Assembly: GCF_000802235.1 (NCBI RefSeq) | Contig: NZ_JTDL01000146.1 | Coordinates: forward strand, 1 to 47,228 | DNA length: 47,228 nt | Reading direction: 5' to 3' | DNA from: Sinomonas humi | GTDB taxonomy: Bacteria > Actinomycetota > Actinomycetes > Actinomycetales > Micrococcaceae | In this document: positions 27,771 to 46,121 of the stretch, piece after piece | How positions within the stretch are numbered: the stretch's first letter is position 1 | How the letters are laid out: every line of letters begins with the position of its first letter | The notes under the pieces: generated by a model | Databases searched by the model: none | The model's input: only the letters and a program-made list of their open reading frames with translations | Told to the model about the DNA's origin: nothing | Translations under genes and position numbers: made by a program

Positions 27771-28583
27771 ATGAGCGACGAAGACCGGCGGCGCGAGCTC
27801 GGCAGCAATGACGCTCCGGTCGAGGCGGAAATCGAGGAGTCCTTCGACCGCATCGTGGTCGAGGGGGCGCAGCGACTGCACCGCACCTGGCCTTCGGTCC
27901 TCATCACCGGATTCTTCGGCGGCGTCGAAGTCGGACTCGGCGTCATGGCCTACCTCGCAGTCCTGCACACGACCGGGAACAAGCTCCTTGCCGGACTTGC
28001 GTTCGGCATCGGGTTCATCGCCCTCCTGCTGGCGAAGAGCGAACTCTTCACGGAGGGGTTTCTGGTGCCTATCGCCGCCGTCGTGGCCCGCGAGGCGCGA
28101 GTTGGGCAGCTCGTCAAACTGTGGACAGGAACGCTTGCCGCCAACCTCGTGGGCGGCTGGTGCTTCATGTGGCTGGTCATGCGAGCGTTTCCCGAATGGG
28201 CTCCAACCGTCACCGAATCGGCTCGGCATTTCGCAGAGGCGCCCCCAAATCTCCAGTCCCTCTGCCTGGCGGCCCTGGGTGGCAGCACGATCACCTTGAT
28301 GACCCGTATGCAGCAGGGGACGGAGTCCGTGCCGGCCAAGATCGTCGCGGCCGTCGCAGGAGGCTTCCTGCTCTCGGGACTACCGCTGTTCCACTCGGTC
28401 CTCGATTCCCTGCTGATCTTCGGGGCCCTCCACGTGGGCGCCCCCTTCGGTTACGGACAGTGGTTCGGCTGGTTCGTCTACACGGCGGTCTTCAACGTCC
28501 TCGGCGGCTTGCTGCTCGTGACTGCGCTTCGGCTGCTCCGCAGCAAGGAGCTGCTGAGCGAGCGGCGCAGCGGCTCCTCCTGA
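27771..28583 (+). CDS. Formate/nitrite transporter family protein (YfdC-like)
   Basis: 270 aa from ATG 27771 with AAGGACAG upstream. A charged N-terminal ~40 residues precedes six membrane helices: SVLITGFFGGVEVGLGVMAY, LLAGLAFGIGFIALLLAKSE, LFTEGFLVPIAAVVARE, WTGTLAANLVGGW, and a last pair ending VFNVLGGLLLVTALRLL. The motif LFTEGFLVP matches the FNT signature around the lumen, and the protein is closer to the YfdC branch, whose substrate is uncertain. In this genome a formate exit route would fit PurU-derived formate, but that link is speculative. Confidence 0.85.
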   Translation: MSDEDRRRELGSNDAPVEAEIEESFDRIVVEGAQRLHRTWPSVLITGFFGGVEVGLGVMAYLAVLHTTGNKLLAGLAFGIGFIALLLAKSELFTEGFLVPIAAVVAREARVGQLVKLWTGTLAANLVGGWCFMWLVMRAFPEWAPTVTESARHFAEAPPNLQSLCLAALGGSTITLMTRMQQGTESVPAKIVAAVAGGFLLSGLPLFHSVLDSLLIFGALHVGAPFGYGQWFGWFVYTAVFNVLGGLLLVTALRLLRSKELLSERRSGSS

Positions 28584-28591
28584 AGGCGCCG

Positions 28592-28669
28592 TCTCAGACC
28601 ACGCCCTCTCAGACCACGACGCCCTCCCAGACCACGCCCTCCCAGACCACGTCCTCTCAGACCACGCCC
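28592..28669. repeat. Five 15-bp repeats between convergent genes
   Basis: Five TCTCAGACCACGCCC-type units in tandem, one with a 3-bp insertion (28607-28624). The stop codon of the minus-strand gene (28657-28659) lies in the last unit. The block fills the whole space between the two convergent genes. Confidence 0.85.
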
Positions 28670-31089
28670 CGGTGCTGGAGGACCCTGAAGGCGACAATGC
28701 CGGGTACTACTGGCAGCCAGTAGGTCAGCAGCCGCGAGCTGAGGACGGCGGCGACGGCGTTGGAGGGTGCCACACCGATCGCCGTCAGCCCCGCGATCAT
28801 CGCGGCCTCGACCGCGCCCAGCCCGCCCGGAGTAGGAGCGAGCTGGCCGAGCGTGGAACCGACCACGAACACGGCAAGCACCGGCACCACGGGGAAGGTC
28901 GGGGTGAAGGCCGCGAGGGTTGTCGCAAGGGCCGCTGCCAGGAGCAGCAGGTATCCCACACAGCCCAAGGTAAGCTGCGCCGCCCGGAGCGGACTGCGCA
29001 GCAAGGGTGTGAGTTCCTGCCTGATCTCGTGAACCCAGGCGATGCCCGGACGCACAATCCTGCGTCTTCCGAACGGTGAAGCCAGGAAGAGGACGATCGC
29101 CAGCAGCAGGGCCGCCGCGCCGGCTGCTACCGGCCAGCTCAGGACCAACCCGACTTGGCCCACGGGAACAGCCCCGCCTATGACAACGAGCCCGAGCACC
29201 GTGCCGACGGCACTGACCAGCCCGGTGACAAGCCTGTTGATGCCTATCGCAGCCACGATCTGCGGCCCGCGGAATCCAATCCGTTCGAGATAGACCCAAT
29301 TGATCCGGTAGAAGCCGATCCCCGCGGCAGTCGTCCGGCCCGTGAAGGCCGCGGCCGCTTGGACCGCGATGGTCTTCCTGATCGGGAGCCTCGGAACGCA
29401 TGAACCGAGGAGCGAGACAGCGGAGGCCAGAATTGCGAGGAAACCGATGACGACGGTCGCAGCCAGCCACCGGCTGTCTCCCCGTTCCAGCAGCACGAGC
29501 ACCTGGTCGATGTTGGAGAACTCGGGCAGCAGGAGGTATACGGCCAGGCCGCCCACCAACAGCACGATGATCGTGGACGGTCGGACCGGCAGCCGGAGTG
29601 ATGGCACCGGCGCCTCGATCTGCTCCGCCAGTCCTTCCCGGAGCCTGGCCAACACACCTGCCCCTGGGGGAAGCTGGCGGCGCAGCCGGCGGTGCAGCAC
29701 CATTCGCTGAAGGTAGGGGAGCACCTGCAAAAGCGCCGCTCGGGGGAAGGCGCGGAGAATGCTCGCGACGGCGCGGTCCGGGCCGACGACGGCGGCCAGC
29801 GAGACCAGCATCTCCGCCGCATCCTGCCGGTAGCCTCCCGCAGGGCCGCCGACGCGGCTGAACGTGAAGCTCGAGATGCGAGGCCGCCCCGCATCGTCAA
29901 CGATGATGTTCTGCGCGCGCAGGTCGTGGTGGGCGATGGGGACGCTTTCCAGGGCTTTGACATTCGCCCAGATGGCATCGAGCAGGGATTCGCTGATGTC
30001 GTTCGCGGAGAGGCTGGAGAGGGGATGGCCGCCGATGGCTCGGGAGATCAGGAACGGGGGCCCGTGTTCGATTTCTCCCGCCAGGACCACCGGTACGGTC
30101 CCGACGCCGGCCCGCTCGGCGAGCAGGGTGATGTAGGCCTCGTGTTCCACTTCGTGCAGCGGGGTTGAGAGTCCTGCTCCGTGTTCGACGTCTACCGACG
30201 CGAACGCGTTGCTGAGCTTGTGCAGGGGGCCGGCGCGACGGTGGAGTCTGCGCACGGTCTTCATCCGGAACAGCGTTCCGTCCTCAGCGGTGATCTCGTA
30301 CTCCTGCGGGCTCAAGAGGCCGCGGTGTACGGGGACGATGCGGGCTCCGCTAAGGCCGGCCCGCTCCACCGCCTGCTGGAGCGCCGATTCTGAGGCCCGC
30401 CGCCCGGGGGCGCCCATCACGATGTGGAAGAGCTTCCCCATGCCCCAGCCGAGCACGACGCCCGCAAACACCCCGACGGGCAGATTCTGTCCCAGGAAGA
30501 CATCGGCCGCGGCCACAAGGACCACGAGGATCCAACTCGTATTCCGCGCGACCCGGGTCAGGTAGGGGGTCGAGACCGAGGCGAGGGCTGCGATGACGGC
30601 ACTGCGTGAATCGGGGAATGCAAAGGCGCCGGCACCGGAGGCGTGGAGGAGCCCGGACTCGACCCCGGGCGGCACCAGCCGTGCCGGAACGGTCCAACTG
30701 ACGACGACGGCGAGCAGCCAGGCGGCGGCGGCCGCGAAGGCCAGCGATATCCCGAGGCGGATCCGTCCGATGTAGAGGGCAAGTCCGACGGCGGCCACAA
30801 TCCCGGGCCAAGAGCCCAGCCAGGTCAGGCCCTCCCAGATGGGAGCCGACCAGCTCGGCAGGCGCTGCAGCTGCGATGCGATGGCCGCTTCTACCGGGTT
30901 GGTGCCGGGGGCGACGGCGACGAGCCGGCAGGCGAGCACCACGCCGGCAGCCACCGCCATCCTGACGACGTCGGAAGGGTGCCGGCCGATCGAGAGCCTC
31001 AGGCGGGCGTAGCGGCTCATGCGCTTGGGGCCGGAAGCATCGTGCCCGGTGTCCGGGCCGCCGTCCTGGCCGGTCCGCTTCGCCGCCAT
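28657..31089 (-). CDS. Three-part membrane protein: PAP2-like, kinase-like, LPG_synthase_TM flippase-like
   Basis: 810 aa from the ATG ending at 31089; the frame is open to 31125, where ATG could add 12 residues. Part 1 (~60-210) is a PAP2-like membrane domain, but the usual PSGH is PDSR (FPDSRSAVIAAL) and the catalytic His and Asp are replaced in LGQNLPVGVFAGVVLG. Part 2 (~240-480) is kinase-like with HHDLRAQNIIVDDAG (catalytic Asp and Asn present), while the DFG position reads SSF. Part 3 (~490-800) has repeated hydrophobic helices of the UPF0104/MprF-flippase type: FTGRTTAAGIGFYRINWVYL, LGQLAPTPGGLGAVEAAMIA. It probably moves or modifies a lipid, and is divergent from a glycolipid-type gene. 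The two degenerate domains suggest binding or regulatory roles. Confidence 0.85.
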   Translation of the reverse strand: MAAKRTGQDGGPDTGHDASGPKRMSRYARLRLSIGRHPSDVVRMAVAAGVVLACRLVAVAPGTNPVEAAIASQLQRLPSWSAPIWEGLTWLGSWPGIVAAVGLALYIGRIRLGISLAFAAAAAWLLAVVVSWTVPARLVPPGVESGLLHASGAGAFAFPDSRSAVIAALASVSTPYLTRVARNTSWILVVLVAAADVFLGQNLPVGVFAGVVLGWGMGKLFHIVMGAPGRRASESALQQAVERAGLSGARIVPVHRGLLSPQEYEITAEDGTLFRMKTVRRLHRRAGPLHKLSNAFASVDVEHGAGLSTPLHEVEHEAYITLLAERAGVGTVPVVLAGEIEHGPPFLISRAIGGHPLSSLSANDISESLLDAIWANVKALESVPIAHHDLRAQNIIVDDAGRPRISSFTFSRVGGPAGGYRQDAAEMLVSLAAVVGPDRAVASILRAFPRAALLQVLPYLQRMVLHRRLRRQLPPGAGVLARLREGLAEQIEAPVPSLRLPVRPSTIIVLLVGGLAVYLLLPEFSNIDQVLVLLERGDSRWLAATVVIGFLAILASAVSLLGSCVPRLPIRKTIAVQAAAAFTGRTTAAGIGFYRINWVYLERIGFRGPQIVAAIGINRLVTGLVSAVGTVLGLVVIGGAVPVGQVGLVLSWPVAAGAAALLLAIVLFLASPFGRRRIVRPGIAWVHEIRQELTPLLRSPLRAAQLTLGCVGYLLLLAAALATTLAAFTPTFPVVPVLAVFVVGSTLGQLAPTPGGLGAVEAAMIAGLTAIGVAPSNAVAAVLSSRLLTYWLPVVPGIVAFRVLQHRGVV

Positions 31090-31205
31090 GCTTTGGATAC
31101 TGCCCCCGTCTCGTGAGCACGTCAACGCTCCAGCGACCAGTCAACGCCACCGTGAGCATGGATACCCCTTGCGGATGGGCTGGTGTTGGTGGGCATCATT
31201 GGTCC

Positions 31206-33773
31206 ATGCCGAATCCGACGGGATTCCTCAATGAGGGGCGAGTCAGCGCCGAGGATGGTGCTGTCCGGCGGGTGCTGACGATCTCCGCCAACATGGGCGG
31301 CGGCCACAATGCGACGGCGGCCGGGCTGGAGGAGGCCGTCCGGGGACTGTGGCCGGGCAGCGAGATCCGCCGTCTCGACACCCTCGACGATCTCTTGGGG
31401 CCGCCGGTCGGTTCGCTCTTCCGGCGGATCTACGTCACGAGCGTCGAGAAGGCGCCGACCCTGTACGAGTTCTTCTATTCGGCGCTCTGGCGGCACCGTT
31501 GGTTCGCGCGCGCCTCCAAGGGGTTTACCGGCGTCTGGTGCGGCTCGCGACTGGCACCGCACATCGACGGGTTTGATCCCGACCTGATTCTCTCCACCTA
31601 TCCTCTGGGCAGCTCCGGTTTGGCCTGGCTTCGCCGCCACCGCGGCCTGAGTGTGCCGTCCGCCGCCTGGATCTCGGACTTCGCCCCGCATCCGTTCTGG
31701 GTCTACCGCGACCTCGACGTCAACTTCGTGATGCACGAAGTGGCCGAGCCGCACGCGCGTTCCGCGGATCCCGGTTCGGAGGTCCAGGTCTGCGCCCCTC
31801 CCGTGATTTCCGCGTTCAGCCCGGGGGACAAGCACGACGCGCGGCGGCGCCTGGGTCTGGGAAGCGACGCCTTCGTTGTGCTGGTCACCGCGGGCGCCTA
31901 CGCGTTCGGAGACGTTGTGGCCACGGTGCGTGCCCTGCTGGCTGCCGCGCCCGAGGTGCAGGTGGTCGCGGCGTGCGGTCGCAACGCCGTGACTCTCGCC
32001 AGACTGGAAGGACTTGGGATTCCGAGGGAACGCCTCGTGGCGCTGGGGTGGACCTCGGAGATGGAGGACTACGTCCGCTCGGCGGATCTCGTCCTGACCA
32101 ACGCCGGGGGCGCCTCCGCTCTCGAGGCCCTCGCGTGCGACCGCCCGCTGCTGATGTGCCGCCCGATCGCCGCTCATGGAGCAGCCAACGCCCAGCTCAT
32201 GGTGGTCAGCGGCTTGGCCGATATCTGCGCGGACGAGGAACGCCTCGTCGACTACATCCGGACCGGTGTTGCGGATCGCGAGACTTTTGAGACTCTCGAG
32301 CGCAATGCGTCAAAGCACCGGCAAGAGAGGGATCTGCACTCGGCGCTGACTGGCTTGGTCGAGCCCCGAGCCACGCCGCCCGCAGTGGACAGGCCGTGGC
32401 CGCTCCGCCCCGCCGACGCATTCTTCGCCCATGTTGAAACCACCGGTGTGAGGCAGGAGATTGGGGCTGTCCTAGCGCTGGATCCCCTGGAGCCGGGCCG
32501 CGCCCTGGACGTCGAGACCCTGCGGAGCGACCTGGGCCCGCGCGCCCGAGGGCTGGCGCCACTGCGTCGCCGTCTGGTGCGTGGACGGAGGGCTGGCTGG
32601 CTGCTCGAGGAGTCACTGGACATCAGCAGGCATGTGTCCGAGTGCGTGCTCGCCCCGGGAGCTGGGGACGCCGAGGTCGACGACACCGTCGATCGCTTCT
32701 GGTCGGTGCCCCTGCCGGAGGACCGCCCGGGCTGGCAGATGCTGCTGGTGCGCGGTCAACCGGGTGGCAAGGCGGTGTTGGCGGTGAAGATGCACCATGC
32801 GCTGGGGGACGGCGTCTCCGCACTGGGGCTGCTCGACCGGCTGCTCGCAGCGGACGGCGGGGATCCACTGCCTGAGCGTGGGGAGGCGGCGAAGCCGTTG
32901 GCCGCGCGGCGCTCGGCAGGCCGCTCCCCGACTGGGCAGGGCGGTGACCGGCTTTCTTCCCTGGGCAAGGCGGCGGGCAAGGCCGCTCTGGGGCTGTGGA
33001 GCCTCGCTAGCCGCGGCACGGCGCCCCGGCATCCGCTCAACCGGGACGCTGTTTCCAAATCCGAGCGTCAGTTCGTTCCCGTTGCCCTGCCGAGGGACAC
33101 CCTCCGGGCGGCGGCGCGTTCCCTCCACGCTCAGCCACACGAAGTGGCTCTGTCGGTCATTGCGGACGCGCTGAGCCGGCTGCTGGCGGACCGAGCGCTC
33201 CTGCTGGGGGACACTCCCTTGCGGGTGATGGTGCCGATGGCGATGCGCGCGCCCCGACTCGACCGCATTTTCGGCAACTGGACGGGGAGCCTCGCACTGG
33301 ATCTGCCCATGGGTCCCATGGAGCCGAGCCGACGGGTGGCCGCGGTCCGGAACGGGCTGCGCCGCCAGATCGAGAGAGGCGAGCCGGCCGCGGCTCAACT
33401 GGTCATGCAGATCGCCGGCAAGCTGCCTGCGGCGGTGCACGGCGGTTTCGCCCGTCTGGTCTACAACCGGCGGTTCTTCAACTCGATCGTCACCTATATG
33501 CCGGGCGCCCGCGGCCCGCGCTGGTGCGGCGGGGCTCGAGTCACAGCGATGTATCCGGTCCTGCCTCTGACCGAGGGAGTCCCCATCACGGTGGGCGCCG
33601 TGCTTGCCGCTGACACTGTCGGCGTCGGCGTACTCTCCGACCCTGCCCTCGGGCTGGACAGGGGGCTCGTGCAGGAAGCGCTGAGGGCGGCGCTCGAAGA
33701 TGCCCTGAACGACGCGGGCTCAACCCACGACGACGTCGGCACCCAAAGTGCCGCGAGTTCGGCGGCGGGCTAA
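31206..33773 (+). CDS. Fusion of MGDG-synthase-like glycosyltransferase (GT28) and WS/DGAT acyltransferase
   Basis: 855 aa from ATG 31206; ATG 31158 and earlier codons are in frame, and the ribosome site is weak. The N-terminal ~385 residues are a MurG/MGDG-synthase-type glycosyltransferase: VLTISANMGGGHNATAAGLE at the start, the acceptor-side PDLILSTYPLGSSGLAWL, and the donor-site VLTNAGGASALEALACDRP with HGAANAQLMV. The C-terminal ~440 residues are a wax ester synthase/diacylglycerol acyltransferase: active-site motif KMHHALGDGVSAL (HHxxxDG, near residue 529), VMVPMAMRAP, IFGNWTGSLALDLP and SIVTYMPGARGP. Together they could glycosylate a lipid and acylate it or its precursor. The gene starts divergently from the flippase-like gene and is followed without a gap by a DMT transporter. 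Confidence 0.9.
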   Translation: MPNPTGFLNEGRVSAEDGAVRRVLTISANMGGGHNATAAGLEEAVRGLWPGSEIRRLDTLDDLLGPPVGSLFRRIYVTSVEKAPTLYEFFYSALWRHRWFARASKGFTGVWCGSRLAPHIDGFDPDLILSTYPLGSSGLAWLRRHRGLSVPSAAWISDFAPHPFWVYRDLDVNFVMHEVAEPHARSADPGSEVQVCAPPVISAFSPGDKHDARRRLGLGSDAFVVLVTAGAYAFGDVVATVRALLAAAPEVQVVAACGRNAVTLARLEGLGIPRERLVALGWTSEMEDYVRSADLVLTNAGGASALEALACDRPLLMCRPIAAHGAANAQLMVVSGLADICADEERLVDYIRTGVADRETFETLERNASKHRQERDLHSALTGLVEPRATPPAVDRPWPLRPADAFFAHVETTGVRQEIGAVLALDPLEPGRALDVETLRSDLGPRARGLAPLRRRLVRGRRAGWLLEESLDISRHVSECVLAPGAGDAEVDDTVDRFWSVPLPEDRPGWQMLLVRGQPGGKAVLAVKMHHALGDGVSALGLLDRLLAADGGDPLPERGEAAKPLAARRSAGRSPTGQGGDRLSSLGKAAGKAALGLWSLASRGTAPRHPLNRDAVSKSERQFVPVALPRDTLRAAARSLHAQPHEVALSVIADALSRLLADRALLLGDTPLRVMVPMAMRAPRLDRIFGNWTGSLALDLPMGPMEPSRRVAAVRNGLRRQIERGEPAAAQLVMQIAGKLPAAVHGGFARLVYNRRFFNSIVTYMPGARGPRWCGGARVTAMYPVLPLTEGVPITVGAVLAADTVGVGVLSDPALGLDRGLVQEALRAALEDALNDAGSTHDDVGTQSAASSAAG

Positions 33774-34676
33774 GTGGAGACAGCACAGATCTGGGCGGTG
33801 CTTCCGGCCGTCGGCGCGGCAGCTTCCTTCGGCTCGGCCGGGCTGCTGCAGCACCGTGTGAGCCGGCAGGCTCCGCCTTCCGGCCCGCTGCGGCCGCGCC
33901 TGCTCTGGGACCTGATCCGGATTTCGGCCTTTCGCTGGGGTGTGCTGCTCGGCGCACTCGGGTTTGCCCTGCAGGCCACGGCATTGTCCTTCGGTCCGCT
34001 GAGCCTCGTCCAGCCCATCCTCGCCACAGGCGTGCTCTTCTATCTGGGAATTGCCGCCGCCGTCATGCACCAGGCGCCTGACTGGCGGTTGGTGGGCGCG
34101 GCGCTGCTGACCACGGTGGGAATCAGCGGCTTCCTTGTCGCGGCAAAGCCCGTCCAGAGCGGCGGGCATCTGCACGGGCTCATCTGGCCTCTCGGCGCGG
34201 CCTTCGCTGCCGCCGTCGTCCTGTGCCTCGTCATCGCTACCAGACTGGCCCACCGATTCAGGGCACTGCCCTTGGCGGTCGCAGCTGCGATCTGCTACGG
34301 CGTGACAGCGAGCCTGGTGCGCAGCCTCGTCTCTTCGGTGGACCTGGCAACCCTGTTTGGCCAGTGGCAGCTCTACGCGGTGATCGTCCTCGGCCCTGCT
34401 GGCTTCCTGCTGAACCAGAATGCCTTCCAGGAAGGCCGCGTAGGGTCGGTTGCGGTGGCAGTCATCACGGTGGGCGATCCGGTCGTATCGATCATCGCCG
34501 GCGCCGTATGGCTCGGAGAACCCCTCGCCGGCGGCCCGGGGCCGACGACTGCGCAGGTGATCTCGCTGCTTGTGATGACAGCCGGAATTGTGCTGCTCGC
34601 GCACAGGGCGCAGGCAGTCGGCGAACGCATCCGGGGTGAGCAGGGAGAAGAGTCGGACATGCCGGAGGTGCAGTGA
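33774..34676 (+). CDS. DMT-superfamily (EamA-like) membrane transporter
   Basis: 300 aa from GTG 33774, immediately after the stop of the fusion gene, so translation is coupled. About nine to ten hydrophobic segments: VLPAVGAAASFGSAGLL, LLGALGFALQATALSFGPLS, ILATGVLFYLGIAAAVM, PLGAAFAAAVVLCLVIATRL, LLVMTAGIVLLAHRAQAVG. It resembles DMT proteins of unknown cargo found in actinobacteria. Position between a glycolipid-type enzyme and an SDR suggests it moves a precursor or product. Confidence 0.82.
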   Translation: METAQIWAVLPAVGAAASFGSAGLLQHRVSRQAPPSGPLRPRLLWDLIRISAFRWGVLLGALGFALQATALSFGPLSLVQPILATGVLFYLGIAAAVMHQAPDWRLVGAALLTTVGISGFLVAAKPVQSGGHLHGLIWPLGAAFAAAVVLCLVIATRLAHRFRALPLAVAAAICYGVTASLVRSLVSSVDLATLFGQWQLYAVIVLGPAGFLLNQNAFQEGRVGSVAVAVITVGDPVVSIIAGAVWLGEPLAGGPGPTTAQVISLLVMTAGIVLLAHRAQAVGERIRGEQGEESDMPEVQ

Positions 34677-34689
34677 AGCGGCCCGAACG

Positions 34690-35508
34690 ATGCGCCTAGG
34701 CGGAAGCAGAGCGCTCGTGACCGGGGCGTCGTCGGGCATCGGCAGGGCTATCGCCCTCGCCCTGAGTGCAGCCGGATGCGAGACCCTGCTCACGGGCCGG
34801 GATGGCGAGCGGCTTGCCGAGGTGGCCGCGGAGACCGGCGGGAGAACGGTTCTCGCCGACCTCAGCGAGCGGAACGGACTCTCGCGCGTCATCGAGGCTG
34901 CGACCTCCTTCCCGGTGCCGGACCTGTTGATCCACGCTGCCGGGATCGGCCGCTTCGCGAGGGTAGCGGAGCGAGCAGACGCCGCGCTTGACGCCGACGC
35001 CGCGGACGACGGCGCGGACGACGGCGGCGCGGGCGACAACAGCGCTATTGACGACGACGGCGCGCTACTCGCGATCAACTATCTCGCGCCCGTCCGGCTG
35101 ACGCGGGCGTTGCTGCCGGCAATGCTGAGCCGAGGCTCCGGGCGGCTTGTCTTCGTCGGCTCGATCGCGGGCCTGCTCGGCGTAGCGGGGGAGTCGGAGT
35201 ACGCCGCGTCCAAGGCAGCCCTGGGCACCTTCGCTGCCAGCTTGCAGGCAGAGCTCAGCGGCACCGGAGTCGGGGTGACGACGCTCATTCCCGGAGTGGT
35301 GGATACCCCGTTCTTCGAGCGCCGCGGCGTCGCCTACGGGCGGCGCTTCCCCCGGCCGGTGCCAGCCGACCGGGTGGCGACGGCGCTGCTGGGGGCCTTG
35401 GAGCGGGAACACGCGCAGGTCGTCGTCCCCGGCTGGCTGCGCGTGCCGATCGCACTGCAGGCCTGCAGCCCCCAGGTCTATGCGCGCTTGGCTGGACGCT
35501 GGGGCTGA
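34690..35508 (+). CDS. Short-chain dehydrogenase/reductase with an acidic insert
   Basis: 272 aa from ATG 34690. Classical SDR: TGASSGIGRAIA for cofactor binding, LIHAAGIGRF (NAG-like), catalytic Ser in VGSIAG, and Tyr/Lys in YAASKAALG; substrate loop PGVVDTPFF. The charge near TGRDGERL suggests NADP(H). An insert of about 20 residues rich in Asp, Gly and Ala (near residues 97-117), encoded by 12-bp repeats (35002-35025), sits before the conserved INYLAPVRLTRALLPAML. It probably reduces a lipid ketone or oxidises an alcohol in the same pathway as the upstream fusion gene. Confidence 0.9.
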   Translation: MRLGGSRALVTGASSGIGRAIALALSAAGCETLLTGRDGERLAEVAAETGGRTVLADLSERNGLSRVIEAATSFPVPDLLIHAAGIGRFARVAERADAALDADAADDGADDGGAGDNSAIDDDGALLAINYLAPVRLTRALLPAMLSRGSGRLVFVGSIAGLLGVAGESEYAASKAALGTFAASLQAELSGTGVGVTTLIPGVVDTPFFERRGVAYGRRFPRPVPADRVATALLGALEREHAQVVVPGWLRVPIALQACSPQVYARLAGRWG

Positions 35509-35522
35509 AGGCCCATCGCTGG

Positions 35523-35578
35523 CTGCGGGTCGTTAACTGCCGGTCGTTAGCTGCCCGTCGTCACCCGCCCGTCGTCGT
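35523..35578. repeat. Four 14-bp repeats between convergent genes
   Basis: CTGCGGGTCGTTAA-type units at 35523, 35537, 35551 and 35565. The period is 14 bp, not a multiple of three, and the block is non-coding up to the hpnH stop at 35578. Confidence 0.75.
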
Positions 35579-36585
35579 CATCCCCGCATGGCGCGCAGGG
35601 ACTCCCGGAGCGAGCCCATCGTGGCCATTACCGCCGTAGGTTCGTAGCCGCAGTGCGCCATGCAGTTGGCGCACCGGGGATCGCGCCCGCGGCCGTACTT
35701 GTCCCAATCCGTCTCTTCGACCAGTTCCTTGTAGGTTGCGGCGTAGCCATCCGACATCAGGTAGCAGGGCTTCTGCCAGCCGAACAGCGAATAGCTGGGG
35801 ATGCCCCAGGCCGTGCACTGGAAGTCCTGCTTTCCTTCCAGGAAATCGAGGAAGAGCGGCGTGTGATTCAACCGCCAGCGCTTGCGGTTGCCGTTCGCGA
35901 AGGCCTTGGAGAACAGGGTCCGAGTTTCCTCCACGACCGGGAAATGCTCCTGATCCGGTGCCTTCTCATAGGCGTAGGCGGGGGAGATCATCATCTGGTC
36001 CACTTTGAGGTCATCGTTGAGGAAATTCATCACATCGATGATCGTCTGGGGCGTGTCCGTATTGAAGATGGTCGTGTTGGTCGTGACCCTGAATCCCCGG
36101 TCCTGCAGCCATCGGATCGACTCGACGGCCTCATCGAAGACCCCGTCTTGGCACACCGACTTGTCATGCCGCTCGCGGAGCCCATCCAAGTGAATGGTGA
36201 ACGCGAAATACGGCGAGGGCTTGAAATCGAATTTGTGCCACCACTTGCGCACGAGCAGCGCGTTGGTGCAGAGGTAGACGAACTTCTTCTGCGCGACGAG
36301 CTCGTTCACGATGCGGTCGATCTCGGGGTGCATGAGGGGTTCACCCCCGGCGATGGACACCATTGGTGCCCCACATTCCTGGATCGCGCTCACCGCCTGC
36401 TCGACGGGCATTCGTCGGCGCAACTGGTCCGCCGGGTGCTGGATCTTTCCGCAGCCGGCGCAGCCCAGATTGCAGGCGAACAACGGCTCGAGCTCCACCA
36501 GCAGTGGGAACTTCTTATTGCCTTTGATCTTCTGCGCGGCCAGATAGCCGGCCATCCGCAGATTCTGGCGCAAGGGCACGCTCAT
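35578..36585 (-). CDS. hpnH: Adenosyl-hopene transferase, radical SAM
   Basis: 335 aa from the ATG ending at 36585 with a strong GAAGGAGGTG site. A radical SAM protein that joins the 5'-deoxyadenosyl radical to hopene (diploptene), forming adenosylhopane, the first step of the C35 side chain. The cluster cysteines are in FACNLGCAGCGK (Cys38, Cys42, Cys45). VSIAGGEPLMHPE and FTIHLDGLRERHD follow, and the C-terminal PRCANCMAHCGYEP holds more cysteines. The length is standard. It starts 71 bp inside the upstream hpnG-ispH gene on the same strand. Confidence 0.95.
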   Translation of the reverse strand: MSVPLRQNLRMAGYLAAQKIKGNKKFPLLVELEPLFACNLGCAGCGKIQHPADQLRRRMPVEQAVSAIQECGAPMVSIAGGEPLMHPEIDRIVNELVAQKKFVYLCTNALLVRKWWHKFDFKPSPYFAFTIHLDGLRERHDKSVCQDGVFDEAVESIRWLQDRGFRVTTNTTIFNTDTPQTIIDVMNFLNDDLKVDQMMISPAYAYEKAPDQEHFPVVEETRTLFSKAFANGNRKRWRLNHTPLFLDFLEGKQDFQCTAWGIPSYSLFGWQKPCYLMSDGYAATYKELVEETDWDKYGRGRDPRCANCMAHCGYEPTAVMATMGSLRESLRAMRG

Positions 36586-38080
36586 GGTGGCGCACCTCCT
36601 TCGGTAATGTGAATTGGACGTGTTCTTCTGTGATTCCGTTCTCCAGGACGTCAACAGCGCCAAGGCCGCGTAATCCGGCAATGACTCCATCCACCAATTC
36701 CTGGGGCGCGGAAGCTCCCGCCGTGAGTGCAACCACTCCGACCTCGTTGAGCCATTCAAGGTCTATGTCGGCCACATCGTCGATGAGATGTGCCGTGGTG
36801 CCAACCCGCTCTGCCTTTTCCACGAGCCGTTGGGAATTCGACGAGTTGGTGGAGCCGACCACGAGGGCAAGCCCAGCGTCCCTGGCGACCTCTGCCAAGG
36901 CCAGCTGGCGGTTGGTGGTTGCATAGCAGATGTCATCTGAAGCGGGTTCCCTCAGGTTGGGGAACCGAGCCTGCAGAATGTCGACCAGCTCGGCCACCTC
37001 GTCGGCGGCAAGCGTGGTCTGCATGATGTACGAGACCCTGTCGGGATCCGCGACCGCGACGGTGCGAGCATCATTCGGGGTTTCGACGAGCAGCGTGTTC
37101 GCGGGGCGCTCACCCATGGTTCCCTCGGCCTCTTCATGGCCGGCATGGCCGAGGAAGATCACGGTGTCTCCCGCGTCCGCGAACCTCCGCACCTCCGTGT
37201 GCACCTTCTGAACCAAGGGGCAGGTGGCATCGATGACGTCCAGGTTGCGGCGTTCAGCCTCCGCGCGCACAGCAGGTGAGACCCCGTGGGCCGAGAAGAC
37301 GACCGTGGCGCCCGAGGGGACCTCGTCGAGCTCGTTGACGAAGACGGCGCCGCGGGACGCGAGGTCCTGCACGACGTGCTTGTTGTGCACAATCTGTTTG
37401 CGCACGTAGATCGGGGCACCGCGCTGCTCGAGGGCCAGTTCGACGACGTCGATTGCGCGGACGACGCCCGCGCAGAAGGAACGCGGACCGGCCAGGAGGA
37501 CCTGACGGGGACCGACTGCCCTGCCCCAGATCTGGAGTGCGGCTCCGACCCGGGGGAGGACGCGAAGGGCGGTGGCCATCCGGCCGACGGTGGCAGGCCG
37601 CAGCAGAGGGGTGCCCGCGGGGTCCGCGATGACTCGCACCGCTGCGACCGAGGCGTCCGGGGCAGCCGCGAGCACCTGGGCGGATTCCATGTCGACGCAG
37701 ATTGCCCCCGTCGCAGCCAGTTCTTCGCGCTCGGGGGAGACCACCACGTGGTCCACACTGACGATGGGCCCGGTGACGACCTGCAGTCCTTGGCGGCGGA
37801 GCGTGGCCGCGAGCAGCGGCGCGCTTGGGCACTCGATGGTTCGGTCAGCGCCGCGGACCTCGGTCGCGACGACGACGTCCCCGGGCACGAGGTCCGGGCG
37901 CAGGCCTCCGCCGATGCCGGCGACGGCAACCGCAGAGGCACGATGGATCTCCCGGTCGGCCAGGGCCCATGAGGCTGCCTTCCCGCCGATGCCCGTTTGC
38001 ACGACGTCCCCGCTCCGCACCGTTCGCCTGAGCGCGGCGGCTTCGAGCCGGCTCGGCGCACACAGCATCATCTCTGTCAT
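36515..38080 (-). CDS. hpnG-ispH: Fused HpnG-type phosphorylase and IspH reductase
   Basis: 521 aa from the ATG ending at 38080 with GAGGAGG upstream. Residues ~1-187 are a hopanoid-associated nucleoside phosphorylase (HpnG): VAVAGIGGGLRPDLVPGDVV, VDHVVVSPE, ICVDMESAQVLAAA. Residues ~190-505 are a complete IspH (HMBPP reductase, last MEP step): AGPRSFCAGVVRAIDV, HGVSP, DATCPLVQKVH, LGHAGHEEAEGTMGE, DICYATTNRQ, STNSSNSQRL, ending VQFTLPKEV. The three cluster cysteines and the EEAEGT acid are present. One chain thus carries an early step (IPP/DMAPP) and a late step (adenosylhopane to phosphoribosylhopane) of the same product. About 20 extra residues follow the IspH end and overlap hpnH. Confidence 0.92.
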   Translation of the reverse strand: MTEMMLCAPSRLEAAALRRTVRSGDVVQTGIGGKAASWALADREIHRASAVAVAGIGGGLRPDLVPGDVVVATEVRGADRTIECPSAPLLAATLRRQGLQVVTGPIVSVDHVVVSPEREELAATGAICVDMESAQVLAAAPDASVAAVRVIADPAGTPLLRPATVGRMATALRVLPRVGAALQIWGRAVGPRQVLLAGPRSFCAGVVRAIDVVELALEQRGAPIYVRKQIVHNKHVVQDLASRGAVFVNELDEVPSGATVVFSAHGVSPAVRAEAERRNLDVIDATCPLVQKVHTEVRRFADAGDTVIFLGHAGHEEAEGTMGERPANTLLVETPNDARTVAVADPDRVSYIMQTTLAADEVAELVDILQARFPNLREPASDDICYATTNRQLALAEVARDAGLALVVGSTNSSNSQRLVEKAERVGTTAHLIDDVADIDLEWLNEVGVVALTAGASAPQELVDGVIAGLRGLGAVDVLENGITEEHVQFTLPKEVRHHERALAPESADGRLSGRAEDQRQ

Positions 38081-40038
38081 CGTGCAGACCTCCTCAGGCA
38101 ACGGCCCAAAGCACTGACCGGAAAGACCAATCGGTACAGGTGGTAGTTGATGTAGAAGTCCCCGGGGAAGCCGGTTCCGGTGAACTGCGGCTCGTCCCAG
38201 CCGCCGTCCGGGCGCTGATGGCCCACGAGCCAGTCCACCCCGCGGCGAGCCGCGTCGCCGTCTGCCTCGTCTGCAGCATGCAGGGCCAGCAGCGCCCACG
38301 CCGTCTGCGACGCCGTCGACTCCCCGCGCCCGGCCCAGCCCGCGTCCTCGTAGGAGCGGAGATCCTCGCCCCAGCCGCCGTCGTCGTTCTGCTGCGCGCA
38401 GAGCCACTGCACCGCCCTGCGGACCGGGCCCCTGTCCCGCGGAAGGCCGGCCAACGTCAGGGCCGGGACCACAGCCCCTGTGCCATAGACATAATTGGCG
38501 CCCCAACGGCCGAACCAAGAGCCATCGGCTTCCTGATGATCGAGCAGCCAGCGCACCCCGCGCTCGAGCGCCGGGCCTTCCTCGCCGCGCCGCGCCAGCA
38601 TTTCGACGACGTGCGCTGTGACGTCCGCGCTCGGAGGGTCGATAACCGCCCCGAAGTCGCAGAAGGGCAGCTGATAGGCCAACTCCCGGGTGTTGTCGGC
38701 GTCGAAGGCCGCCCATCCGCCGTCCCGGCTCTGCATCCCAAGGATCCAGTCCCGGCCCCGCGAGGCGGCGCTTCCGCGCTCCGGTGTGGGCTGGGTGCAG
38801 TCGAGGCCCATGATGACCTCGGCCGCGTCGTCGATGTCCGGGTAGCCGTCATTGTCGAATTCGAAGGCCCACCCGCCTGGGGGAACATCGGGACGGCGGA
38901 GGGACCAGTCTCCGCGGACCCGGATCTCCTCCGCGCAGATCCAGTCGGCGGCTCGCTCGAGAGAAGGGTGTCCCGGCGGAAGGCCGGCATCGGCCAGTGC
39001 GGTGAGCGCCAAGGCGGTGTCCCAGACGGGGGACTGGCAGGCCTCAATTCTGCGCACCATGCCGGCCTCGGTCTCTTCCGTGATGGTGAACCGCTCCCAG
39101 CCGGCCAGTCCCTTCGCCAGAACCGGATGGTCCAGCGCGTACCCGAAGGCGTGCAGCGCCATGAGGGAGTAGACCCACGGCGGCTGGATTCCACCCCACG
39201 AACCGTCCGCCTCCTGGCGTTCGACGATCCACTCGACGGTGCGGCGCAGCGCCGTCGCCCGCATTCCGCGCCCGGGGAAGTTCTCGTGGCGTTGCCGCGT
39301 CGTTTCGTAGCGGTGCAGCACCGTGTCGAGCAGGCCGAAGGCGCGCGCCGCGGGGGAGGCAGCCGGTCCTGCAGGCTCGGGGGCCCGCTCGCGAGCAGGG
39401 TCGGCGCGCAACTCATCGAGGCCGAAGCCCAGCTCGGCCCGTGGGCGCAAGGCAGCCAGAACGGTCAGCGGGGCGATCGTCTGGCGGGCCCAGCACGCAA
39501 AGTCATACAGGTTCAGCGGGAATTGCGGCGGCAGGAAGATCAGCTCCGGCGGCAGCGCTGGCACCTCATCCCAGCTCCACACCCCGAAGAGGGCCAGCCA
39601 GATGCGGGTGAAGACCCGCGTCTGCTCGAGTCCGCCATGCTCGAGGACGACGGCGCGGGCCCGCCGCATGTGCGGCTCCTCCGGCGCGTCTCCCGCGAGT
39701 CGCAGCGCGACGTAGGCTTCCGCCGTCGTCGATGGATCGGGCGGCCCGCCGTAGAAGTTGGCCCACGAGCCGTCGGCGCGCTGCTGGCTGCGGATCCACC
39801 GGGCAGACTGCGCCGTCTGCTCCGCTGTCCGCACACCGAGGAACTGCCGCATCAGCAGGTCTTCGGCGTCCATCGTCACATTCGTTTCGAGCTCGCCCTG
39901 CCACCAGCCGCCATCGTGCTGGAGGCCCAGGAGGTGTTGGACTGCGGCGTCGAGGCAGGCCTGAGCGGCTGCGGAGTCTGCCAGTTCGGGTGCCTGGCGC
40001 AAAGTACTAGCAGACACGTTTCCATCGATCGTCGTCAT
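38077..40038 (-). CDS. shc: Squalene-hopene cyclase
   Basis: 653 aa, typical size. It cyclises squalene to hopene and hopanol at the membrane. The protonating DxDD motif is DIDDAAEV near residue 401. QW-type repeats are frequent: QRADGSWANF, QEADGSWGG, QSRDGGWAAF, QEADGSWFGRWG, QNDDGGWGED, QRPDGGWDE. Other landmarks are GGWWQGELETNVTMDAEDLL at the N-terminus and GTGFPGDFYINYHLYRL at the end. Its stop overlaps the hpnG-ispH start by 4 bp. Also called hpnF. Confidence 0.97.
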   Translation of the reverse strand: MTTIDGNVSASTLRQAPELADSAAAQACLDAAVQHLLGLQHDGGWWQGELETNVTMDAEDLLMRQFLGVRTAEQTAQSARWIRSQQRADGSWANFYGGPPDPSTTAEAYVALRLAGDAPEEPHMRRARAVVLEHGGLEQTRVFTRIWLALFGVWSWDEVPALPPELIFLPPQFPLNLYDFACWARQTIAPLTVLAALRPRAELGFGLDELRADPARERAPEPAGPAASPAARAFGLLDTVLHRYETTRQRHENFPGRGMRATALRRTVEWIVERQEADGSWGGIQPPWVYSLMALHAFGYALDHPVLAKGLAGWERFTITEETEAGMVRRIEACQSPVWDTALALTALADAGLPPGHPSLERAADWICAEEIRVRGDWSLRRPDVPPGGWAFEFDNDGYPDIDDAAEVIMGLDCTQPTPERGSAASRGRDWILGMQSRDGGWAAFDADNTRELAYQLPFCDFGAVIDPPSADVTAHVVEMLARRGEEGPALERGVRWLLDHQEADGSWFGRWGANYVYGTGAVVPALTLAGLPRDRGPVRRAVQWLCAQQNDDGGWGEDLRSYEDAGWAGRGESTASQTAWALLALHAADEADGDAARRGVDWLVGHQRPDGGWDEPQFTGTGFPGDFYINYHLYRLVFPVSALGRCLRRSAR

Positions 40039-40073: not shown

Positions 40074-41084
40074 TCAGCGGTCCCGGTGGCTGAGCTGCCG
40101 GGCCAGCGTGGTGAAGTCTTCCGCAATCGGCCCCGGGAGGAGCAGGGAGTCGATCCTCGCCAAGGCCGCCTCAAGCTCCTCGTCGGCGCGCTGCTCCGTC
40201 CAGTCCTTCCCGCCGGCCTCCGAGACCAGCTCTGCCGCCTCGTGCAACTGCGCCTCGTTCAGCTCGTCAGGCTGCGCATAGAGCACGGCCAGACGGTCTC
40301 CGGCGGGAGTGCCAGAAGCCAGCGCGTACACCACCGGCACCGACTTCTTCCGGGACCGGAGGTCGGACAGGACGGGCTTTCCTGTCCGTTCGGGGTTGCC
40401 CCAGATTCCCAGGATGTCGTCGGCCAGCTGGAATGCCAGGCCCAAATGCTCGCCGAACTCGGCCAAGCCCAAGGCCAGTTCCGCGGGCGCGTCGGCGAGG
40501 ACGGCGCCGAGCGACGCCGAGCAGGCCATGAGCGCGCCAGTCTTGTCGGCAGCCATCTTGAGGCATTCGGCGAGACTGACCTGATCCTGGGTCTCGAAGG
40601 CGAGATCTGCGGCCTGCCCGGCTATGAGGCGGCGGGTGCTCGCCGTGAGGCACCGAACGGCCCAGTCCTTGGTCGCCGAGGGCGCCTCGGCCAGCACCTC
40701 GCTTGCAAGCGAGCAGAGCGCGTCTCCGGCAAGGATCGCCGCTGGGACGCCGAACTGGGCCCAGGCCGTCGTCCGGTGCCGGCGCTCGGTGTCGTGGTCC
40801 ATCACGTCGTCGTGCAGGAGGGAGAAATTGTGGATCAGCTCGCACGCGACAGCGGCCGGGATGCCAATTTCGTCGCCCGCGCCCGCGGCCCAGGCCGAGA
40901 GCAGCGCGAGGGCGGGCCGGATTCCCTTTCCCGTACCCGAGATCGGGCTCGCATCGCTGTCCCAGAAGCCCAGGTGGTAGCCGCAGACGTGCCGTGTCGC
41001 GGGATCCAGACGGTCCAGTGCGGAGCGGAGCGGTGCGTCGATCCGCCGCTGCCCTTCGGCGAGGATGCTCACGGTCGCGGTCAT
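40074..41084 (-). CDS. Polyprenyl (farnesyl/geranylgeranyl) diphosphate synthase
   Basis: 336 aa from the ATG ending at 41084; the frame is open to 41201. Trans-prenyl synthase with the first Asp-rich motif LLHDDVMDHD (DDxxD) and the second FQLADDILGIWG (DDxxG); GKGIRPALALLSAWAAG binds the pyrophosphate and KTGALMACSASLG is typical. In this operon it should supply farnesyl diphosphate for HpnC/HpnD. Chain length cannot be read with certainty. It starts within the end of hpnE (4-bp overlap) and lies 35 bp before shc. Confidence 0.92.
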   Translation of the reverse strand: MTATVSILAEGQRRIDAPLRSALDRLDPATRHVCGYHLGFWDSDASPISGTGKGIRPALALLSAWAAGAGDEIGIPAAVACELIHNFSLLHDDVMDHDTERRHRTTAWAQFGVPAAILAGDALCSLASEVLAEAPSATKDWAVRCLTASTRRLIAGQAADLAFETQDQVSLAECLKMAADKTGALMACSASLGAVLADAPAELALGLAEFGEHLGLAFQLADDILGIWGNPERTGKPVLSDLRSRKKSVPVVYALASGTPAGDRLAVLYAQPDELNEAQLHEAAELVSEAGGKDWTEQRADEELEAALARIDSLLLPGPIAEDFTTLARQLSHRDR

Positions 41085-42436
41085 GCAATCACTTCCCTTG
41101 TCTGTGCTTGGGGCTTGAACGAGGTAGCGAGCGTTTCGACGGCGGCCAGTCCGCTGCGGACGGCGCCCTCCATCGTGTCCGGCCAGCCGGTTGCGGTCCA
41201 TGCGCCGGCCAGCGCGAGAGAAGGCCAGCGCGTGGCGGCCGGCGGTCGAAGGGCGCCGGTTCCGGCTCCTTGGCGGAACGTGGCCCTCGGTTCACGGGTC
41301 ACGAAAGAGTCGACCACGGAGGCATTGCGTGCGGCCGGGAAGACCGCAGCCAGCGCGGAGAGATGGCGGGTGCGAATCTCCTCCGTGGGCGTCCCGATGA
41401 GCTCCTGGGCGGCGGAAAGCGAGGAAACGAGGTACTGCCCATGAGCGGCGCCCGCGGCTTCGGTCCGGTCGAATACCCACCAGCTGCCGGAGCCCAGCAC
41501 AGCGGCGAAGGGGAGGGCGGTCACCGGGCGGTCGTAGAGGACGTGGACATTGACGATGGCGGCGTCCCCCAGCTCATTCCAGCGCTGATCCGGCACCGCC
41601 GCAGCCGGGGCCAGACGCGCCGCGGCGGCGTGTGGGACGGCCAGCACCACGGCGTCCGCGTCGACTTCCCCTGTGTCGGTCCGTACGGTGAGGCCGGGGC
41701 CGGACTCGCTGATGCCGCGCACTCGCTCCCCGGTGTGCAGGCCGATGCCGAGCCGCGCGAACGTCTGCCGTGCGGGCGCGTCGTGCAGCCTGGACAGGGG
41801 GACCCGGGGCACCCCGATGTCCCCGGCCCGGACGTCGTCGAGGAGCCCGGTCCGGAACACTCGGGCCGCGAGCGCGAGCGAGGCCTGCTCAGGGACGATG
41901 TTCAAAGCGGCGATGCACAGGAGTCCCCAGAGCCGGTCGACGGCGGCAGGCGTCTGGCCGTGGCGGCGCAGCCAGGCGCCGAAGGTGATTGCGTCGCTCG
42001 CCGGATCATCGGGGTCGACGCCGCGGAGTGCGCTGGCGGCGAGCACAGCCCGGATCCGGTCTGCCGTGGGCAGAGCGCGGTAGCCGGCAAGCGCGGGAAG
42101 GAGATGGAGCGGGGCGGGTCCGTGGAGGCCGCGGCGCAGCCGGGTCGGGCGGTGATGGGGCGAGATCACCGGAACGTCGAGGCGGTCCTGGATGGCGATG
42201 TCGTCCGAGGCCCCCAGCCGGGCCAGGAGCTCTTGGTACCGGCTGTAACAGCGCAACAGCACGTGCTGTCCGGTATCCGCCGTCAGGCTATCCCTCTGGA
42301 AGGAGTAGGTGGCGCCGCCCAGCCGTGGGCGCGCCTCGAGCAGCGTGACCCGAGTGCCCCGCTGGGCCAATCCGATCGCTGCGGTTATACCGGCTAGGCC
42401 GCCTCCCACCACCAGTGCACTGTTCGGCCCGCTCAT
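41081..42436 (-). CDS. hpnE: Hydroxysqualene dehydroxylase
   Basis: 451 aa FAD enzyme that reduces hydroxysqualene to squalene, the third step of the HpnCDE route. The N-terminal FAD site is ALVVGGGLAGITAA, with EARPRLGGATYSF close behind; DTGQHVLLRCYSRY is typical of HpnE. The C-terminal AGAWTATGWPDTMEGAVRSG contacts the flavin. It resembles phytoene desaturases but the neighbourhood (hpnC, hpnD, shc) fixes the role. Four-base overlaps join it to hpnD and to the prenyl synthase. Confidence 0.94.
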   Translation of the reverse strand: MSGPNSALVVGGGLAGITAAIGLAQRGTRVTLLEARPRLGGATYSFQRDSLTADTGQHVLLRCYSRYQELLARLGASDDIAIQDRLDVPVISPHHRPTRLRRGLHGPAPLHLLPALAGYRALPTADRIRAVLAASALRGVDPDDPASDAITFGAWLRRHGQTPAAVDRLWGLLCIAALNIVPEQASLALAARVFRTGLLDDVRAGDIGVPRVPLSRLHDAPARQTFARLGIGLHTGERVRGISESGPGLTVRTDTGEVDADAVVLAVPHAAAARLAPAAAVPDQRWNELGDAAIVNVHVLYDRPVTALPFAAVLGSGSWWVFDRTEAAGAAHGQYLVSSLSAAQELIGTPTEEIRTRHLSALAAVFPAARNASVVDSFVTREPRATFRQGAGTGALRPPAATRWPSLALAGAWTATGWPDTMEGAVRSGLAAVETLATSFKPQAQTREVIA

Positions 42437-43305
42437 GCCCGCCCCCTCACTATGGCACGGAGCGCCACCCGCAGCTTTGACGACGTCGGCAACGAGAGTC
42501 GCTGCCCGCGCACGACTTCGGGGTCAACGGCTATTCGATCGAGCAGCTGTCGGTAGATCCCCGCCATCGCGGCGGTACAGGCAGCGCTTCGGTGATCCAG
42601 GAGCGGGAGCAGCGTCAGGCCATCTGCGTACCAGGCTTTGGCCCGTGCCGCCTCGAACCGGACCAGAGCCGCAAACCTTTCCGGTGGGTCCGCGAGGTTG
42701 CCCTCGCTGTCGAGCTCGAGGGTGCAGCCGAAACGATCGAGGTCCTCGCGGGGCAGGTACACCCGTCCCACCTGACGGTCCTCGCGGAGGTCTCGCAGTA
42801 TGTTCGTGAGCTGGAGCGCGACGCCGAGGGCATCAGCGAGCGGCCGGGCTCGTTCGGGCTCGGCGGGGCCATAGACGCCCAAGGAGAGCCGACCTATGGA
42901 CCCCGCCACGCAACGGCAGTAATGCACCAGTTGCTCGAAGCTCTCGTACTGCCGGCCCTCAACGTCCGCACGGCAACCCTCGATGAGTTCATCGAAGGCC
43001 TCCAAAGCGATCGGGAGCCGGGCAGCGGCGTCGGCCAAGGCCACCAGGACGGGGTCATCCTGTGCCGCTGACACACCGTCCCGGATCAGGTCCTGCAGGC
43101 TCTCGGACGTGGCAGAAAGGGCCAGGAGCTTTTGGTCGGTCGGCATCGTACCGTCCCCGATGTCGTCGATCCGCCGGGCGAGGGCGTAGATCGCGCACAT
43201 CGCCTGGCGTTTGACGGGGGGCAGCAGGCGGATCCCGTAGGAGAAGTTCCTCGCTTCCCGGCGGGTGATCTCGGCGCACGTGGCGTAGGCGGCTTCAACG
43301 CTCAT
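42433..43305 (-). CDS. hpnD: Presqualene diphosphate synthase
   Basis: 290 aa from the ATG ending at 43305; the frame is open further up. Squalene/phytoene synthase fold that condenses two farnesyl diphosphates to presqualene diphosphate. The Asp-rich motifs are ALARRIDDIGDG and LTNILRDLREDRQVGRVYLP. NFSYGIRLLPPVKRQAMCAI is the substrate-side start. Its first bases overlap the end of hpnC (ATGA). The pairing of two paralogous synthases, hpnC and hpnD, followed by hpnE, is diagnostic. Confidence 0.95.
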   Translation of the reverse strand: MSVEAAYATCAEITRREARNFSYGIRLLPPVKRQAMCAIYALARRIDDIGDGTMPTDQKLLALSATSESLQDLIRDGVSAAQDDPVLVALADAAARLPIALEAFDELIEGCRADVEGRQYESFEQLVHYCRCVAGSIGRLSLGVYGPAEPERARPLADALGVALQLTNILRDLREDRQVGRVYLPREDLDRFGCTLELDSEGNLADPPERFAALVRFEAARAKAWYADGLTLLPLLDHRSAACTAAMAGIYRQLLDRIAVDPEVVRGQRLSLPTSSKLRVALRAIVRGRA

Positions 43306-44147: not shown

Positions 44148-44178
44148 CCGGTCCTCCTTTCGCCTTCTGCTCACGCCA

Positions 44179-46050: not shown

Positions 46051-46121
46051 CATGAACCTCCGTTGGCCATGCAAGGGCGGCTTCTGCTTAGCCGCACAAT
46101 GTCCGGGCTTCCCAACGGGCC

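Follow-up and report, generated by a model that had tools for sequence, protein, structure and literature searches.

A conserved glycosyltransferase-acyltransferase fusion beside the hopanoid genes of Sinomonas humi: a candidate hopanoid-tailoring enzyme

What might a protein do that joins a lipid glycosyltransferase to a wax ester synthase/diacylglycerol acyltransferase (WS/DGAT) in one polypeptide? This question is raised by a gene at positions 31206-33773 (plus strand) of the Sinomonas humi contig NZ_JTDL01000146.1, whose 47,228 nucleotides are called the window below. A sequence-only reading of the window had suggested an acylated glycolipid or a glycosylated wax-type product and could match the gene to no known pathway; it had missed the hopanoid operon, which neighbours the fusion at each of the four loci where the fusion was found. 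In this study we describe a real, rare and conserved fusion of a family 28 glycosyltransferase (GT28) with a WS/DGAT acyltransferase. We tentatively propose, at a probability that we place just short of even, that the protein is a bifunctional hopanoid-tailoring enzyme, which would perform the last decoration steps of the side chain and make an acylated glycosyl-hopanoid.

The fusion gene and its orthologues

The gene and its parts are listed here.

31206-33773, plus strand: fusion gene, GT28 glycosyltransferase followed by WS/DGAT acyltransferase, 855 residues (open frame, Pfam, orthologues in three other genomes)
31266-32330, plus strand: GT28 half of the monogalactosyldiacylglycerol (MGDG) synthase/YpfP type, residues about 21-375 (PF06925, PF04101; solved relatives 9wde and 4wyi)
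31293-31325, plus strand: N-terminal glycine-rich loop MGGGHNATAAG, residues 30-40 (small changes only across the four fusions)
32100-32132, plus strand: donor site NAGGASALEAL with Glu307, residues 299-309 (from the alignment)
32331-32402, plus strand: inter-domain linker, residues 376-399 (54% identical to L031, the Arthrobacter terrae locus, versus 76% and 64% for the halves)
32403-33704, plus strand: WS/DGAT acyltransferase half, residues 400-833 (PF03007, PF06974; solved relatives 6chj and 7nxg)
32793-32813, plus strand: HHxxxDG motif (HHALGDG), residues 530-536 (retained in all four fusions)
33138-33143, plus strand: His645-Glu646, replacing the ND motif (HE, HE, HE and YE across the four fusions)

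The 855-residue frame has no internal stop and matches four Pfam models, each above its curated cut-off, in the order MGDG_synth (PF06925, residues 34-200, 41.5 bits, cut-off 25), Glyco_tran_28_C (PF04101, residues 225-374, 38.1 bits, cut-off 22), WS_DGAT_cat (PF03007, residues 400-592, 84.4 bits, cut-off 23.6) and WS_DGAT_C (PF06974, residues 690-831, 46.5 bits, cut-off 20.7). The motifs MGGGHNATAAG, NAGGASALEAL and MHHALGDG (the last at residues 529-536) are all present as the sequence-only reading had quoted them. The open frame itself extends upstream to a GTG at 31113; this start was rejected and the ATG at 31206 preferred, because the 86%-identical orthologue of G009 (MPNPSGFF...) begins at the equivalent of that ATG.

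Three other genomes carry a full-length fusion. G009, found among 58 relatives' genomes (own included), belongs to the same genus, and its copy is the 86%-identical one. In Arthrobacter terrae the identity ranges from 65% (L031, contig scan) to 69% (a search of 395 genomes of the family, where the same genome is G147), and in G623, a member of another order found in a draw of 394 genomes of the class, it is 58% over residues 18-838. Chance is an unlikely explanation, and a frameshift or an assembly artefact was rejected, because these three genomes hold full-length copies without internal stops. The fusion is genuine, as the sequence-only reading had stated. Searches at thresholds of 1e-30 to 1e-45 in 17 + 166 genomes around G623 and in 168 genomes of the phylum revealed no further full-length fusion, and tblastn against plasmids gave 27 records, none with one place spanning 80% of the protein. 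When the own genome was searched with the fusion protein, the single match at E <= 0.001 was the fusion itself.

Both halves are under purifying selection: between the window gene and its G009 orthologue, the ratio of nonsynonymous to synonymous substitution rates (dN/dS) is about 0.08 in the glycosyltransferase part and 0.18 in the acyltransferase part. The excerpts of open-licence papers covered by our literature search held nothing on a GT28-WS/DGAT fusion. An AlphaFold2 model computed from a two-sequence alignment (window protein and L031) had a mean predicted local distance difference test score of 34.6 and was discarded. An Rfam scan of the window gave no family at the gathering score.

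The fusion accompanies hopanoid genes

The fusion is followed by two genes on the same strand and then by a convergent row of hopanoid genes.

33774-34676, plus strand: DMT-family transporter, candidate (glyco)lipid transporter (NF038012; all four fusion loci)
34690-35508, plus strand: short-chain dehydrogenase/reductase (SDR), probable start 34690 (PF00106; adjoins HpnH in all four fusion loci)
35578-36759, minus strand: HpnH, adenosyl-hopene transferase (TIGR03470, 518.2 bits, cut-off 225.05)
36515-38716, minus strand: single frame coding for an HpnG-like phosphorylase and IspH (PF01048, PF02401)
38077-40038, minus strand: squalene-hopene cyclase (TIGR01507, 702.6 bits, cut-off 431.1)
40074-41201, minus strand: polyprenyl diphosphate synthase (PF00348)
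41081-42436, minus strand: HpnE (TIGR03467, 408.3 bits, cut-off 283.05)
42433-43605, minus strand: HpnD (TIGR03465, 280.7 bits, cut-off 278.6)
43302-44174, minus strand: HpnC-like (TIGR03464, 245.7 bits, just under the cut-off of 250.45)
44179-46074, minus strand: 1-deoxy-D-xylulose-5-phosphate synthase (DXS; TIGR00204, 551.5 bits, cut-off 465.95)

The DMT gene begins at 33774, the base directly after the fusion stop, a gap of 13 bases separates its own stop from the SDR start, and the end of the HpnH gene lies 69 bp past the SDR. The order fusion-DMT-SDR and then the hopanoid row is the same in 4/4 fusion loci over the sequence available: that of G623 extends to DXS, that of L031 stops inside HpnE and that of G009 (L049) starts inside HpnC.

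In the own family the fusion was detected in 3 of 395 genomes and the hopene cyclase in 3 of 390, and these were the identical three genomes; since two of them belong to one genus, the independent co-occurrence events are few. A class draw contained the cyclase in 77 of 325 genomes. Thus, in the genomes sampled, the fusion accompanies hopanoid genes, while hopanoid genes mostly occur without the fusion.

Motifs of the glycosyltransferase half

The donor-site Glu307 and the GGGH of the glycine-rich loop are retained in all four fusions, and the Glu is also found in the standalone GT28 proteins aligned with them; we take it to have the role of the donor-site Glu in GT28 enzymes. The AHGAAN that follows the donor site is closer to the GHG of most aligned actinobacterial GT28s than to the Gln-bearing relatives. 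Among solved structures, the half matches 9wde, a processive diacylglycerol beta-glucosyltransferase (residues 80-368, 5e-23), and 4wyi, the chloroplast MGDG synthase 1 (residues 21-347, 1.4e-17). It shares with both the glycine loop and the donor-site Glu, and differs from them in its fusion to an acyltransferase and its link to hopanoid genes. The equivalog model of the diglucosyl diacylglycerol synthase YpfP (NF010135) scored 109.9 bits, far under its cut-off of 500 bits.

Separate counterparts in other genomes

To look for the two halves as separate genes, we searched 20 other actinobacterial cyclase loci by tblastn (E <= 1e-4); the loci were picked from the 77 cyclase genomes, mostly as the best-scoring ones, six come from family f35, and several loci are truncated at a contig end. 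A standalone GT28 lay within about 7 kb in six of the 20 (five f35, one f31), a WS/DGAT in two and a DMT gene in seven. A relative of NodB-type polysaccharide deacetylases adjoined the GT28 in each of the six loci that had one (Pfam domain confirmed for L101). These loci, L096, L097, L100, L101, L103 and L107, carry GT28, deacetylase relative and DMT beside hopanoid genes.

HpnI, which transfers N-acetylglucosamine (GlcNAc) to bacteriohopanetetrol (BHT), the deacetylase HpnK and the radical S-adenosylmethionine enzyme HpnJ are described from hopanoid clusters (PMC12583986). The set of GT28, deacetylase and DMT looks like an actinobacterial counterpart of HpnI and HpnK. The window system would resemble HpnI and HpnK (with HpnJ) in that a sugar is added to BHT and a second enzyme then acts on the sugar, all from genes of the hopanoid cluster; it would differ in that its second step is an acylation. 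The ten NCBIfam families matching the window protein up to E=1 include neither HpnI nor HpnK, the library presumably holding an HpnI model.

A genome-wide search of 16 such cyclase genomes found GT28 in 14, mostly as one copy, and beside the cyclase in 6/16. Among the 58 relatives, GT28 matches occurred in the two fusion proteins and, apart from these, in G041 and G035; cyclase status is on record for part of the 58, and the contrast with the 14/16 is confounded by relatedness. One GT28 protein of 643 residues (L110:535-2466) carries at its C-terminus an extension that matches no Pfam family up to E=0.01 and by eye resembles a degenerate polysaccharide deacetylase.

The two hopanoid-adjacent WS/DGATs are fusions of a different kind, in which Pfam assigns PAP2_3 to the N-terminal partner (L108:11873-14974 and L099:118-3441). 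Three more PAP2-WS/DGATs (L126, L127 and L128, identified by similarity) were found in 55 genomes chosen non-randomly, 32 of them cyclase-bearing, 20 without a cyclase match and 3 of undetermined status, at a threshold that missed the known fusion of G147. All five PAP2-WS/DGAT genomes carry the cyclase, and a DMT gene directly follows the PAP2-WS/DGAT in two of L126, L127 and L128.

Within the set sampled these proteins are the nearest kin of the window acyltransferase half. It clusters with the five of them (support 99/97) and separately from the sampled WS/DGATs of the ordinary kind, a grouping to be read with caution because of long branches. They differ from it in having PAP2 rather than GT28 as the N-terminal partner and, where the ND motif would stand, TD or SD rather than HE or YE.

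Proposed route

In the proposed route, HpnH and HpnG would yield ribosylhopane, which the neighbouring SDR or another reductase would convert to BHT. The GT28 half would then use a nucleotide-sugar donor (uridine diphosphate-glucose, -galactose or -GlcNAc) to glycosylate BHT at its terminal hydroxyl, and the WS/DGAT half would next transfer an acyl group from acyl-coenzyme A to a hydroxyl, either on that sugar or on the side chain. The resulting acyl-glycosyl-hopanoid would be moved across the membrane by the DMT protein. Of all this, the analysis shows the fusion, its conservation, the retained catalytic motifs and the association with hopanoid genes, whereas the two activities, their donors, the acceptor, the order of steps and the transport are inferred. 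If so, the earlier pointer to an acylated glycolipid was probably right.

We favour this route because the fusion-DMT-SDR unit adjoins hopanoid genes in 4/4 loci, including that of the other order at 58% identity, and because fusion and hopene cyclase share the identical three genomes of the family. It is further favoured by the acyltransferase kin that adjoin hopanoid genes in two cases, by the GT28-deacetylase pairs at six cyclase loci that resemble HpnI/HpnK, and by the retention of HHxxxDG and of the donor-site Glu in every fusion. A product of the predicted kind is also known, N-acylglucosaminyl-bacteriohopanetetrol being described from Alicyclobacillus (PMC8537080); it likewise consists of BHT, a sugar and an acyl chain, and differs in that the acyl chain is amide-linked and the organism belongs to another phylum.

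Several results weigh against the proposal. The fusion is rare, occurring in 2/77 cyclase genomes of the class draw (own and G623), where we deduce from the handle numbers that the fusion search covered all 77. Twelve of the 20 other cyclase loci have neither GT28 nor WS/DGAT. Contrary to expectation, the PAP2-WS/DGATs stand beside hopanoid genes in only two of five cases, the other three lying on contigs without the cyclase. G460 has a PAP2-WS/DGAT beside its hopanoid genes and no GT28 anywhere at E <= 0.001, so that its acyltransferase must use an acceptor other than a GT28-made glycoside. In the tree, and again contrary to expectation, the standalone GT28s linked to hopanoid genes branch apart from the glycosyltransferase half, which may therefore have been recruited separately. 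In 12 of 18 standalone GT28 loci the available stretch (17-19 kb in six, 3-4 kb in the other six) contains no hopanoid gene, and a deacetylase relative is nearby in six of these 12. G630, G041, G562 and G1007 have a GT28 located away from hopanoid genes, three of the four with a deacetylase nearby. Since such loci exist, some with the deacetylase, the GT28 set is probably able to act on other lipids as well. The solved relatives of the glycosyltransferase half are named as diacylglycerol glycosyltransferases. Finally, in the acyltransferase half the PLW position is occupied by PGW or PAW and the ND position by HE or YE, both motifs being replaced in 4/4 fusions.

The last point deserves a closer look. 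Published descriptions name PLW and ND as motifs typical of WS/DGATs, with a part in active-site folding (PMC4520822), and HHxxxDG as taking part in catalysis (PMC5407786). The ND position reads SD or TD in the PAP2-WS/DGAT group, ND in 20 of the 21 other aligned WS/DGATs and TD in the remaining one. The window half shares both Pfam domains and HHxxxDG with the bacterial WS/DGATs 6chj and 7nxg; it differs in the replaced motifs, in not being a standalone protein and in its score with the WS/DGAT subfamily model TIGR02946 (222.6 bits, cut-off 309.95). Because PLW and ND are replaced though HHxxxDG is retained, the half is divergent, most simply through a different acceptor. The missing motifs make a simple function in wax ester or triacylglycerol synthesis less likely and so weaken a wax- or triacylglycerol-type product.

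Alternative explanations

The diacylglycerol names of the solved relatives suggest a glyceroglycolipid enzyme, whose glycosyltransferase half would glycosylate diacylglycerol and whose other half would acylate the product to acyl-glycosyl-diacylglycerol, with hopanoid genes as neighbours since both remodel the membrane. Paenarthrobacter lasiusi is described as having MGDG, digalactosyldiacylglycerol, their esters and an MGDG synthase gene (PMC11719660), and L052 and L054 carry GT28, DMT and deacetylase with no hopanoid gene in a stretch of 17-18 kb. We nevertheless regard this alternative as rather unlikely, given that fusion and cyclase occur in the identical three family genomes and that the synteny extends across orders.

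G460 speaks for a second alternative, in which the halves have hopanoid-related activities and no shared product: the acyltransferase would esterify hydroxyls of BHT or ribosylhopane directly, and the glycosyltransferase would act on another molecule. This would fit the WS/DGATs of the same lineage in the hopanoid clusters of L099 and L108, which have no GT28 there; one of these two loci belongs to G460. Hopanoid side chains may be acylated, and N-acyl aminopolyols are described (PMC8537080). Against it, protein fusions usually join consecutive steps; we consider this possibility distinctly unlikely.

The third alternative, improbable in our view, is that the protein works as a glycosyltransferase only and that its WS/DGAT fold, catalytically inactive, does no more than bind an acyl chain or the lipid acceptor; the lost PLW and ND and the low TIGR02946 score point that way, but HHxxxDG is retained in 4/4 fusions, the half is under purifying selection, and the five PAP2-WS/DGAT relatives also deviate from ND, two of them also falling short of the TIGR02946 cut-off, so that this score alone says little. 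A storage enzyme for triacylglycerol or wax was rejected on the motif losses and the hopanoid context.

Returning to hopanoid tailoring, a broader interpretation is possible, although we lean somewhat against it: actinobacteria may possess a modular hopanoid-headgroup cassette of their own that differs from HpnI/J/K and is composed of a GT28, a DMT transporter and either a NodB-type deacetylase or a WS/DGAT acyltransferase of a separate lineage. The window protein would be its most compact form, one polypeptide both glycosylating BHT and acylating the product, with a WS/DGAT-type enzyme dedicated to a hopanoid.

What is new here is that two known enzyme families are combined next to a pathway that is itself known, the predicted product being of a known kind. 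Both acylated and glycosylated hopanoids are known compounds (PMC8537080), and in the excerpts of open-licence papers searched none linked WS/DGAT or GT28 to them. If the proposal is true, the gene would provide a handle on the acyl-glycosyl-hopanoids of actinobacteria and a marker for their genome-based prediction; it would also supply a bifunctional catalyst, and WS/DGAT enzymes would gain a new acceptor class. The enzymology of acyl-glycosyl-hopanoids becomes directly testable.

Other genes of the locus

The enzyme of the BHT-forming step is described as not established in the excerpt of PMC12583986, and the SDR at 34690-35508 is a testable candidate for the ribosylhopane-to-BHT reductase. 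HpnH has an SDR relative no more than 200 bp away in 4/4 fusion loci and in 8/20 other actinobacterial cyclase loci, SDRs being common.

The HpnG-like protein and IspH form a recurrent second fusion within the same cluster, sharing a single stop-free frame in all four fusion loci; 15 of the 20 other cyclase loci match both, and 13 of these 15 have them in one such frame. In the window roughly the first 200 residues of this frame overlap the cyclase gene and are probably untranslated, and the HpnG model TIGR03468 scores 78.8 bits, under its cut-off of 187.1. The polyprenyl synthase at 40074-41201 has as its best model the family 2 encapsulin cargo NF041169 (402.9 bits, under the cut-off of 450).

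On the other side of the fusion lies one further gene shared by most of the loci.

28657-31125, minus strand: divergent membrane protein with an LPG_synthase_TM (flippase-like) domain (three of four fusion loci)

This protein also has PAP2 and kinase-like stretches, both under cut-off. Its gene is missing at the G623 locus, where PriA is the upstream neighbour. A formate/nitrite-transporter family protein, at 27771-28583 in the window, is likewise retained next to the fusion cluster of G009 and of L031.

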